Shown here one piece after another: positions 1,425-35,878 of a DNA stretch of 35,921 bases (positions are counted from its first letter, which is position 1; each line of letters begins with the position of its first letter). The notes under the pieces are model-generated. The model ran no database searches, had not been told where the DNA came from, and saw nothing but the letters and a program-made list of their open reading frames with translations. Source of the DNA: Rickettsiales bacterium. Its GTDB lineage: Bacteria; Pseudomonadota; Alphaproteobacteria; Rs-D84. The stretch covers positions 1 to 35,921 of the forward strand of contig JAITJD010000003.1 in NCBI GenBank assembly GCA_031279085.1. The letters run 5' to 3'. The position numbers and the translations under genes were made by a program.

Positions 1425-1460
1425 TATGAATCCTCCTAATCATTAATAAGCCCCGCAAAA

Positions 1461-1634
1461 AGCGCGATAGCGCGAAAGGCGGTTGGAGGTTAGTTGCAAT
1501 TTTTTGGGAAAATGTGCCATACTTTCAATATGCAATACATTTCTTCCAACTTGTCCGACCGGAGTTTTCACCGTCTCCCTCGGACGCCCAAAACCAAAGG
1601 CAACTACACCACATCACAAGAATTATCTTGCAAT
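1461..1634 (-). ncRNA. Structured leader element, copy A (diverged)
   Basis: On the minus strand the predicted RNA runs from just after the -10 box to a GC-rich hairpin with a short T run (1461-1484). The outer closing stem pairs 1600-1606 with 1491-1497 (TAGTTGC/GCAACTA) and 1587-1593 with 1502-1508 (TTTTGGG/CCCAAAA). An inner stem pairs 1580-1585 with 1553-1558 (GTCCGA/TCGGAC). The plus-strand block 1478-1490 (GGCGGTTGGAGGT) matches the blocks at 16257 and 33088. It precedes the secreted gene starting at 1424 by about 35 nt. The 306-base stretch 1425-1730 holds only this element and its promoter. Transcript ends are inferred, not measured. Confidence 0.55.
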
Positions 1635-1640
1635 AACATG

Positions 1641-1646
1641 AGTATA
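1641..1646 (-). promoter_or_regulatory. -10 box of leader A promoter
   Basis: The minus strand reads TATACT inside TTTTGTGATATACTCATG. This context is nearly identical to the -10 region of leader C (TTTTGTGATATACTTATG). The -35 is weak (TTTATC or TTTTAT around 1663-1669). It would start transcription near 1634, at the edge of the structured leader. Confidence 0.5.
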
Positions 1647-15000: not shown

Positions 15001-16209
15001 CTATTTCACTTCATTTTTCACTTCATTTTCCTTTTTGACGCACTTTAAATATTCATCTGGACTAATAATTGTCCAGCATTGCTTATTCAGTTCGGCATTA
15101 TGGTCATTGCCTTTCCCGAAAGCCAGTTCCTGGTTGCTATACTTGATCGCTGTTCTGCAATAAGCGGGCGCGTATTCCGTTTTGTCAGAAAAAAGCTTTC
15201 CTGTTTCGCAATTGACGCAAACGCCGGTATCCGGATTCGCTCCATTCTTTGGATTGCCTTTGCATTCGACGCATGTTTTGTCCGCATCTGACTTGAATGC
15301 ATATCCCGCCAGGCATCTGTATTTATAGCATTTTGCGGTGTCGTCATATTTCGGCTCATGCGCTGCGGCGTTAAAATCTTTCCAATCCGCGCATAAGTCC
15401 GCGTCGGTCAAAGTGCATTTGGTCGGATCCACCGGATCGCAATCATCCTTTGCGTAATTCGCCTTGTACCCGTTTTTGCAAAGCAATGTCGGGGTGCCGA
15501 CCTTCATCACTGTCGCGGTGGACACCATATCTTCCCAGCCGCTACGTTCTGCGCGCACCACCATGGGCTGCACAAGCGCGCCGTGCCCCCTGGGCAGCCA
15601 GCCGGATACAGCCAGAACCATATCGTGCTCTTGGGTTTTGTTTAATCCGCACCCCACAGGGTCATTCATATAAAACATTGAAATTTGACTTTCAATATTC
15701 GCACCTTGGGTCGCTATTTTGTAATTTGCAAACTTCGCCTTGGTTATTAATGTGGAATCGCAAAAGTTGTCGTCGCGCGGAGTTGTGCATCCGTCGCCGC
15801 CATAATTTTCCTTGCAGAGCCAAAAACACTCGCCCAATCCACCCTCAGGCTCGAAATAAATTGTAAGTGCATTGCCTTTGTTTTTGTTCGTGCCCTGCGC
15901 CTGGGTTACGCAAAACTTTGCGCCGTTGGCATTAACATCGCGCGCAATCAACAGCAATATCGCCATTTCATCGTCGGAAGTTCCACGATTCGGCTGATTG
16001 TGCGCGGCCCCGTTCCAATTTTTGCAACCTGCAAGACTATTGCCTACGCATGCATCTCCCACGTTGTGGCTTTTGCAGAGACGTTGATTATTCGACAAGC
16101 CAGACGCGCCCCATGAGGACCTCAAACCGGATATATTTATTCCGCCTCCAACGGCGGGAATGAAGAACAAGCACCCAAGAAGAATTATTATAGTTTTCAA
16201 GCAGTTCAT
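15001..16209 (-). CDS. Cysteine-rich secreted protein, unknown function
   Basis: The 402-residue product has a signal peptide (MNCLKTIIILLGCLFFIPAVGGG) and many cysteines throughout. Several stretches resemble growth-factor-receptor-like cysteine spacing (CLAGYAFKSDADKTCVECKG and CVNCETGKLF), plus GYKANYAKDDCDP. The C-terminus is lysine- and glutamate-rich (KKENEVKNEVK). It is the same general type as the protein at 1-1424 and probably disulfide-bonded at the cell surface or in the periplasm. GGAG lies about 8 bases upstream of the ATG, and the structured leader with terminator (16235-16399) lies immediately before it, so expression probably depends on read-through or refolding of that leader. 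No characterised family is recognised. Confidence 0.82.
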   Translation of the reverse strand: MNCLKTIIILLGCLFFIPAVGGGINISGLRSSWGASGLSNNQRLCKSHNVGDACVGNSLAGCKNWNGAAHNQPNRGTSDDEMAILLLIARDVNANGAKFCVTQAQGTNKNKGNALTIYFEPEGGLGECFWLCKENYGGDGCTTPRDDNFCDSTLITKAKFANYKIATQGANIESQISMFYMNDPVGCGLNKTQEHDMVLAVSGWLPRGHGALVQPMVVRAERSGWEDMVSTATVMKVGTPTLLCKNGYKANYAKDDCDPVDPTKCTLTDADLCADWKDFNAAAHEPKYDDTAKCYKYRCLAGYAFKSDADKTCVECKGNPKNGANPDTGVCVNCETGKLFSDKTEYAPAYCRTAIKYSNQELAFGKGNDHNAELNKQCWTIISPDEYLKCVKKENEVKNEVK

Positions 16210-16234
16210 TTTTTATGCTCCAAAGTTTTATATG

Positions 16235-16399
16235 CAAAAAAACCACCGGAGAATCTGGTGGTTGGAGCTTTCTAACAATCTACTGAATTGCGTGGCTTAT
16301 TCAATATATTCGCCACACTCCAACCTTGGTTGGAATGCCTTCATCCTTGCGGATGCAGTAGACTGGGTTAGAAAGCCCAATGCAGAAACACTCTGCATT
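16235..16399 (-). ncRNA. Structured leader element, copy B (clearest)
   Basis: The predicted minus-strand RNA of about 165 nt begins with a hairpin (AATGCAGA/TCTGCATT). A two-part closing stem pairs 16367-16375 with 16268-16276 (CTTTCTAAC/GTTAGAAAG) and 16356-16362 with 16279-16285 (TCTACTG/CAGTAGA). Inside it are three hairpins: CATCC-GCAA-GGATG (a GNRA loop), CATTCCAAC/GTTGGAGTG and GTGGC/GCCAC. It ends in a Rho-independent terminator. Compared with copy C, bases 16257-16276 match 33088-33107 at 17 of 20 positions while the other stems change sequence but keep pairing. It is the leader of the gene starting at 16209. It may act as a cis-regulator or as a free small RNA; the ligand or target is unknown. 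Confidence 0.65.
16236..16263 (-). terminator. Terminator at the end of leader B
   Basis: On the minus strand AACCACC (16257-16263) pairs with GGTGGTT (16241-16247) and runs into seven T residues. It lies only 26 bases before the start codon at 16209, an attenuator-like position. Confidence 0.75.
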
Positions 16400-16405
16400 A
16401 CTCAA

Positions 16406-16434
16406 ATTATAATAATATGCACATATAAAGTAAA
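16406..16434 (-). promoter_or_regulatory. Promoter of leader B
   Basis: TTTACT (16429-16434) and TATAAT (16406-16411) on the minus strand are 17 bases apart. Transcription would start near 16399, right at the first hairpin of the leader. Confidence 0.65.
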
Positions 16435-33061: not shown

Positions 33062-33237
33062 TTGCCACCGAAACGCCAATAGCGTCAGGTGGTTGGAGGT
33101 TCTAAACAATCTTCATGAAATTGCGCCGCGCCTTCAATGTATAACGCAAGCCCTCCAACCGACGGTTGGAGCTTTTCGTCGCTTTCGACGCATGAAGAGA
33201 GGTTTAGATGCCTCAATGCGGAACAGAATCCCGCATC
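33062..33237 (-). ncRNA. Structured leader element, copy C
   Basis: The predicted minus-strand RNA has a first hairpin (ATGCGG/CCGCAT, 33216-33236). A two-part closing stem pairs 33202-33208 with 33101-33107 (TCTAAAC/GTTTAGA) and 33191-33197 with 33111-33117 (CTTCATG/CATGAAG). Three inner hairpins follow: CGTCG-AAAG-CGACG, CTCCAACC-GTC-GGTTGGAG (33153-33171) and TTGCG/CGCAA (33121-33149). The last hairpin is CCACC/GGTGG with an inner ACGC/GCGT (33065-33092). The last hairpin lacks a T run, unlike copy B. It precedes the secreted gene at 33029 by 33 bases. The fold was worked out by eye. Confidence 0.62.
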
Positions 33238-33243
33238 GGCATA

Positions 33244-33272
33244 AGTATATCACAAAATTCCCCCATGTTGAA
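33244..33272 (-). promoter_or_regulatory. Promoter of leader C and the coiled-coil operon
   Basis: TTCAAC (33267-33272) and TATACT (33244-33249) on the minus strand are 17 bases apart. The -10 context TTTTGTGATATACT is shared with leader A. Confidence 0.6.
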
Positions 33273-35519: not shown

Positions 35520-35640
35520 TTGTCCCCCTTGGTAAAGAGGGACTAATCCGAACGTGGGGTTAGCCCCTCTTGATAAAGAGGGGAGAAAAGCTGGGAGCTT
35601 GCGCCAGCCAAGCGACCCAAGCTTTTCAGGGAGATTTCTG
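35520..35640 (+). repeat. Interspersed palindromic repeat, copy 1
   Basis: The unit contains two hairpins, GTCCCCCTT-AAGAGGGAC (35522-35543) and CCCCTCTTGATAAAGAGGGG (35564-35583), a variable middle, and ends in GGGAGATTTCT. Copy 2 is the same type of unit in the opposite orientation. The stretch 35373-35921 holds no gene that I can support, only the repeat at 35444 and these two units. Confidence 0.75.
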
Positions 35641-35764
35641 GTTAAAGGTTGGCACTAATAGAATTTGGTTTATACGAAGGATTTATTCTTAATAATAAAA
35701 AAACAAATATTCTTTTCTTATAAACAAAAATACAAAGAAAAATCTTCTCTGTTATAATTAAAAA

Positions 35765-35878
35765 GAAATCTCCCCGCTTTTCCGGCAATCAAGCTTGCTC
35801 GTAAAACCTCCCCTCTTTATCAAGAGGGGCACAACTCCCCGCAAGCTCGGATTTGTCCCCCTTGGTAAAGGGGGACAG
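35765..35878 (-). repeat. Interspersed palindromic repeat, copy 2 (inverted)
   Basis: Reverse-complemented, this stretch reads GTCCCCCTTTACCAAGGGGGAC, a short variable part, GCCCCTCTTGATAAAGAGGGG, a variable middle and GGGGAGATTTCT, matching copy 1 block by block. The two copies face each other across 124 bases of A/T-rich sequence without an ORF. Further similar sequence (ending CTCTTGGGGGA) continues to the right edge. Confidence 0.75.

Follow-up and report, generated by a model that had tools for sequence, protein, structure and literature searches.

The window, that is, the whole stretch of 35,921 nucleotides analysed here, carries on its minus strand a gene for a 402-amino-acid cysteine-rich protein with a signal peptide (15001..16209, ATG at 16209). 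Ahead of this gene, on the same strand, lies a structured element extending from a promoter to a U tract (16236-16434), hereafter leader B. No Pfam family was found for the protein, and 21 of 60 related genomes encode relatives of it. A C homopolymer (L028:1487-1497) that adjoins one paralogue at its 3' end is possibly a phase-variable tract or an assembly artefact. The promoter consists of a -35 hexamer TTTACT (16429..16434) and a -10 hexamer TATAAT (16406..16411) with a 17-nt spacer, as expected from the sigma-70 promoter that the first-pass annotation had placed here. Its hexamers match at 10 of 12 positions and about one equal site is expected in shuffled sequences, so the better evidence comes from conservation across copies: an A+T-rich -10 box stands at a fixed distance ahead of nearly all copies of the leader.

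All elements of leader B are read on the minus strand. At the expected transcription start (~16399) a 5' hairpin is formed (16379..16399), in which all nine pairs show two-sided changes. It is followed by a two-part long stem enclosing three hairpins. The outer helix, P1, joins GGGCUUUCUAAC (16367..16378) to GUUAGAAAGCUC (16265..16276), and the inner helix a joins UCUACUG (16356..16362) to CAGUAGA (16279..16285), with two-sided changes in seven of seven pairs; both helices were seen in the fold as well as in covariation, and so was hairpin 1 with its GCAA (GNRA) tetraloop (16342..16355). The 3' arm of hairpin 2 (UCCAACC-AA-GGUUGGA, 16319..16334) is the putative switching strand, as it has in common with this hairpin the 5' strand of an antiterminator helix, GGUUGGAGU (16317..16325). 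Hairpin 3 (~16290..16318) contains a conserved internal loop, GAAUA...GAAUA. Two short strands, b (CAAUU, 16286..16290) and b' (AUUG, 16276..16279), make up a pseudoknot, and a pivot box, GCUCCAACC (16260..16268), runs into the terminator hairpin AACCACC...GGUGGUU (16241..16263), the first four nucleotides of which are shared with the antiterminator helix. The U tract occupies 16236..16242, and the Shine-Dalgarno sequence UUGGAGC (16217..16223) is complementary to the pivot box. Thus the hairpin at the start site, the two-part stem, the T-tailed terminator 26 nt upstream of the ATG (T run to 16236) and the cysteine-rich secreted protein, all of which had been described from the sequence alone, were located as proposed.

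With GC content taken into account, leader B is the most stable 180-nt segment of the window. Its minimum free energy is -73.6 kcal/mol versus -46.0 ± 4.4 kcal/mol for shuffled sequences (z = -6.25), and none of 200 shuffles reached it. The terminator hairpin folded on its own has -9.6 kcal/mol; a simple terminator scan of the window did not call it because its loop is 9 nt long.

Two further copies are found in the window, both on the minus strand. Leader A (1455..1646) precedes the gene of a secreted cysteine-rich protein (474 amino acids, running off the contig), and leader C (33067..33249 from promoter to hairpin) precedes the genes of a 111-residue secreted protein and a 490-residue secreted coiled-coil-like protein. 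The T runs behind the hairpins of A and C are weak or displaced, leaving B as the only window copy with a clear U tract, and in A the antiterminator, like hairpin 2, is weak. Additional copies were found by BLAST of the genome itself, and a covariance model run against this 809-kb (0.81-Mb) genome gave 15 strong copies (E 6e-52 to 2e-8), so that the three copies marked earlier are real and have 12 others elsewhere in the genome. Seven weak matches (E 8e-4 to 5e-7), some of them antisense to true copies, are omitted from the scripted counts. The model also found the leader in 43 of the 60 related genomes, with at least 42 copies in one genome of 1.1 Mb; 44 candidates were scored per genome, and these copy numbers are lower bounds. 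With a refined model, 179 of the 190 genomes from the order Rs-D84 had matches, as did about two dozen genomes of other Alphaproteobacteria. The carriers recovered from GTDB by a sequence-pattern scan are uncultured gut Alphaproteobacteria of ruminants, chicken and other animals, including Candidatus Enterousia, a genus within the GTDB order Rs-D84, whose bacteria have reduced genomes and are considered obligate symbionts or parasites (PMC12306168). A search of plasmid sequences with the window copy gave no match. Three IMG/VR contigs (L281-L283) bear leaders of the Rs-D84 type, two identical ones ahead of a secreted-protein gene and one ahead of a transporter-like gene; a viral origin of the leader was rejected, given hundreds of chromosomal copies against these three contigs. 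In some cases two leaders lie within 100 nt of each other, in tandem or divergently (L153:1668-2089, L046:459-868, L155:1691-2184 and L119:1991-2425), an arrangement like that of tandem riboswitches or recent duplications.

The leader RNA is real and covaries strongly. Already in five aligned copies, 24 of 49 pairs showed two-sided changes and 87% of the cells were paired, compared with at most 48% in slid controls. In the alignment of 117 matches, compensatory changes on both sides were found in 44 of the 49 modelled pairs and 96.4% of the cells were paired; slid controls did not exceed 50%, and the observed values were reached in 0 of 500 shuffles. The earlier reading was to be given up if homologues lacked covariation, and on this point it holds firmly. 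Outside the model, CAAU before the 3' strand of helix a pairs with AUUG after it, and at one pair of this b:b' interaction A-U was found in 62 sequences and U-A in 47. With a linker of 1-2 nt and a helix of 6-7 bp, b:b' fits the geometry of an H-type pseudoknot. The internal loop of hairpin 3 occurs in two versions within one genome, GAAUA/GAAUA and UUAUA/GAAAG (A2/A3; window positions 16310-16297 and 33143-33133), which possibly represent two specificities.

The first-pass annotation overlooked both the antiterminator helix and the relation to sRNA-Xcc1 described below. The pivot box, CCUCCAACC, directly upstream of the terminator can base-pair with GGUUGGAGG, the 3' arm of hairpin 2, and the two vary jointly between copies, as in GCAGGAGG/CCUCCUGC, UCAGGAGG/CCUCCUGA and GCGGGAGG/CCUCCCGC. 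With further matched types such as UUUGGAGG/CCUCCAAA and GUUGGAGU/ACUCCAAC, about ten types are known in all. On the shared strand, covariation amounted to 96% for hairpin 2 and 91.5% for the antiterminator, with slid controls below 64%; hairpin 2 covaries as well as the antiterminator, and therefore the shared strand has two selected partners. Of 132 copies, 124 have an antiterminator helix of 9 bp or more, and in 110 this helix overlaps the 5' arm of the terminator, 104 of them with an overlap of 3-7 nt; by the criterion applied, the overlap is absent in ~17% of copies. At least five T within 8 nt behind the terminator stem were present in 103 of the 132. In 36 distant copies, found with a model that included hairpin 2 and left out the antiterminator, this helix was kept in nearly all, with new sequences (for example GGCAGGAAG/CUUCCUGCC, UGACUGGAAG/CUUCCAGUC and GGUCGGGGAG/CUCCCCGACU). 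Since the two mutually exclusive pairings each covary, and since the antiterminator overlaps the terminator, the arrangement points to a terminator/antiterminator switch. Two features by which riboswitches are recognised, a conserved structured core with covariation and an expression platform of mutually exclusive terminator and antiterminator, are present. As far as sequence comparison can establish them, the helices, their mutual exclusion, the overlap with the terminator, the placement and the copy number are demonstrated. In copy B before the terminator is made, the summed nearest-neighbour energies, which leave out pseudoknot costs, were -26.4 kcal/mol for P1 with hairpin 2 versus -25.7 kcal/mol for the P1 core with the antiterminator. 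The two states are thus nearly balanced at this stage, and completion of the terminator favours OFF.

An open reading frame lies behind 133 of 134 leader copies, mostly 10-35 nt from the end of the element. By a simple rule, signal peptides were called in 91 of 105 leader genes (those of at least 100 amino acids) versus 25 of 108 other open reading frames of the same loci (p = 9e-22), and the median cysteine content was 6.3% in leader genes versus 1.0% in neighbouring frames. Pfam families are rare among the leader genes (single trypsin, outer-membrane and hydrolase matches, and two HTH regulators), and no enzyme or pathway is common to the genes from which a ligand or protein could be guessed.

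The Shine-Dalgarno regions fit the P1-3'/pivot strand of their own leader better than that of other leaders, both in the Rs-D84 type (p = 2e-6) and in the sRNA-Xcc1 type (p = 1.5e-7). The complementarity in the Rs-D84 type is modest, with a median score of 18 versus 16 in sequences that are GGAGG-like anyway; that of copy B, UUGGAGC, is able to pair with the pivot box. An extreme case comes from a copy in the same genome, L355, in which UUUUUCAACUCC in the P1-3'/pivot strand faces GGAGUUGAAAAUG at the Shine-Dalgarno sequence and start codon. This leader (L355:860-1150, equal to G000:C13:3860-4150) is of the sRNA-Xcc1 type, scores 43.6 bits against the Rfam family sRNA-Xcc1 (RF02221), precedes the gene of a cysteine-rich secreted protein, and is a bridge between the two branches.

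The first-pass annotation knew of no named RNA family with this layout, which is true of the window copy and not of the family. Compared with Rfam at the gathering cut-off and at E up to 10, the window copy gave noise only (sroD at 13 bits, a snoRNA); it had no match to RF02221 up to E = 10, did not reach the gathering score of that family (53 bits), and did not reach that of any Rfam riboswitch or leader family. However, the distant copy L303 scores 56.2 bits against RF02221, above the cut-off, and matches below it were given by two other distant copies (L313, 51.7 bits; L317, 43.5 bits) and by two further leaders from the genome of the window, with 43.6 and 38.8 bits. A model built from Rs-D84 leaders only finds sRNA-Xcc1-type loci at full length, with E values of 1.7e-8 and 6.5e-7, and of 1.3e-6 for an E. 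coli phage. Three elements stand in the same order in both: the outer helix of RF02221 corresponds to the antiterminator helix of the Rs-D84 leaders, its inner hairpin to hairpin 3, whose AAUA...GAAUA loop it shares, and its second hairpin to b:b'. The RF02221 model, filed under gene/sRNA and not as cis-regulatory, spans 87 nt and covers the 3' half only, without P1, helix a, hairpins 1-2, the 5' end and the terminator. The sRNA-Xcc1 loci nevertheless share the larger layout, with P1, helix a, the antiterminator and the position ahead of an open reading frame, and their P1 strands score a median of 16 against their own partner versus 12 for mismatched loci. Rs-D84 leaders differ from them in a shorter hairpin 1-2 region and in their targets, the secreted-protein genes. 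By sequence relationship, then, the Rs-D84 leaders are no isolated new family: they represent the sRNA-Xcc1 family at full length and make up a large, divergent branch of it.

RF02221 matches were found in 51 of 299 Pseudomonadota genomes, and BLAST gave matches in 161 of 5,426 E. coli genomes. The frames led by such loci encode BRO-N, KilA-N, P22-type antirepressor, Rha and SymE proteins; one full-length relative lies upstream of ant in a Rac-type phage of E. coli, and another lies, again ahead of ant, within a small inverted unit amid Vibrio phage tail genes. E. coli GMM060 (L353, NZ_CM183920.1 194226-199460) has 13 matches, and the copy viewed stands ahead of a P22AR-domain gene and adjoins an ISL3 transposase that interrupts bcsE; the insertion sequence may carry the leader. 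At sRNA-Xcc1-type loci a second copy of the 5' strands of P1 and helix a often flanks the Shine-Dalgarno sequence and would compete for the 3' strands of the leader. In the literature, sRNA-Xcc1 is treated as a small regulatory RNA (PMC2996969, PMC12444791, PMC12189769): a transcript of ~88 nt supported by Northern blotting and RACE (PMC2996969), an RNA of Xanthomonas integron cassettes upstream of symE (PMC12444791), and present in seven copies in Xylella (PMC12189769). Chen et al. 2011 name it trans-acting in their title, as cited in PMC12444791. Literature searches for orphan riboswitches and for attenuators that precede antirepressor genes returned nothing on the leader family.

From these results, leader B is probably an attenuator RNA that acts in cis through exchange of its pivot strand; it belongs to the full-length, Rs-D84-type relatives of the sRNA-Xcc1 family. 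The pivot strand, (C)CUCCNNCC, has four alternative pairings. In the first, it would pair with the G-rich base of P1 and leave its end to the terminator, so that an RNA of ~163 nt is released (OFF); in the second, it would pair over 9-10 bp with the 3' arm of hairpin 2, disrupting hairpin 2, the base of P1 and the base of the terminator and allowing RNA polymerase to read through (ON). In the third it would lie inside the terminator hairpin, and in the fourth, in the read-through mRNA, it would bind the Shine-Dalgarno GGAG(G) and block translation unless the second state is adopted, which probably adds a translational layer of control to attenuation. The pseudoknotted core (P1, helix a, b:b' and hairpins 1-3) would choose between the first two states on a putative signal, and one signal could control 15 or more mostly secreted-protein genes jointly. 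We infer that the leader is transcribed and that the switch runs in this direction, and likewise infer the existence and nature of the signal. The earlier reading as a transcription attenuator or riboswitch is well supported in its layout by the covariation, the fixed placement before the start codon and the antiterminator; taken as a whole interpretation, it stands in part. More tentatively, and with somewhat more doubt than belief, we suggest that these leaders form a new and very widespread class of ligand- or factor-responsive attenuators, with a pseudoknotted leader of ~160-230 nt whose single pivot strand controls transcription termination as well as access of the ribosome. Phages and integron cassettes would use it for antirepressor and SymE genes, and in the sub-megabase Rs-D84 bacteria it would have expanded to a master control of the secretome (at least 42 copies in 1.1 Mb).

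The same attenuator might be switched not by a small molecule but by an RNA-binding protein or the transcription machinery (an antitermination factor). This special case of the preferred explanation is a serious possibility, although we would not yet put it first: the downstream genes (secreted proteins, HTH regulators, phage antirepressors, SymE) have no metabolite in common, and the conserved GAAUA/GAAUA loop of hairpin 3 could be a protein site. That the leaders are primarily terminated small RNAs acting in trans, their position before genes being secondary, seems rather unlikely. The 88-nt transcript and the trans-acting label cited above speak for it, as do the U-tracted terminators of most copies and the strand copies flanking Shine-Dalgarno sequences, with which the 3' strands of P1 and helix a of the sRNA-Xcc1 type could pair, so that the released RNA could repress the neighbouring gene or its paralogues. 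However, a free RNA needs neither a start codon 10-35 nt past the terminator, as nearly all copies have, nor an antiterminator covarying inside each copy. Still less probable is a passive leader, in which a strong promoter and an mRNA-protecting 5' structure give constitutive partial read-through with no switching; the promoter and 5' hairpin are fixed in position in nearly all copies and the default fold is very stable, but two exclusive covarying helices on one strand and a conserved pseudoknot would then be superfluous. A mobile DNA element or recombination site misread as RNA, suggested by relatives in phages and in Xanthomonas integron cassettes (PMC12444791), is hardly credible, since the elements precede start codons with their own -10 box and are dispersed and not arrayed, P1 varies freely in sequence with covariation, and crossing helices are a feature of RNA; an integron attC site in particular, an idea taken from the inverted repeats and the literature link, was judged unlikely on layout only.

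As a probable attenuator, leader B resembles transcription-attenuating riboswitches in being a 5' leader with a pseudoknotted core and a predicted terminator/antiterminator strand exchange; it differs in having no Rfam riboswitch match and in its own 9-10-bp pivot that also matches the Shine-Dalgarno sequence. The c-di-GMP riboswitches include transcription-attenuating examples and occur in many copies per genome, and riboswitches of this type resemble the leaders in standing in many copies ahead of surface and secreted genes. The identity suggested by this copy number was rejected, as there was no Rfam match to the c-di-GMP riboswitch, the conserved nucleotides of which differ from those of the leader. 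Rfam gave no support for a tRNA or T-box either, and a type III toxin-antitoxin system (pseudoknot RNA, terminator, toxin) was discarded because the downstream proteins have no common family. The isrK and C4 RNAs are structured leaders upstream of phage antirepressor (ant) genes in prophages. The sRNA-Xcc1-type relatives likewise precede ant, KilA-N, BRO and Rha genes, whereas the leader has no Rfam match to isrK or C4 and its fold differs.

If the attenuator reading holds, a poorly understood 88-nt 'trans-acting sRNA' would turn out to be the 3' half of an mRNA leader that is conserved, able to switch and open to mechanistic testing, and a regulatory handle would be gained on the proteins secreted by a reduced-genome order that is abundant, uncultured and host-associated. 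Because full-length relatives precede antirepressor genes in E. coli prophages, the switch can be dissected in laboratory E. coli, which may expose a signal sensed by prophages and gut symbionts alike. Apart from the leaders, the end of the contig (window positions 35521-35877) contains an inverted repeat of 39 nt (TGTCCCCCTTGGTAAAG...); it is probably of a dispersed kind, at which the assembly broke off.
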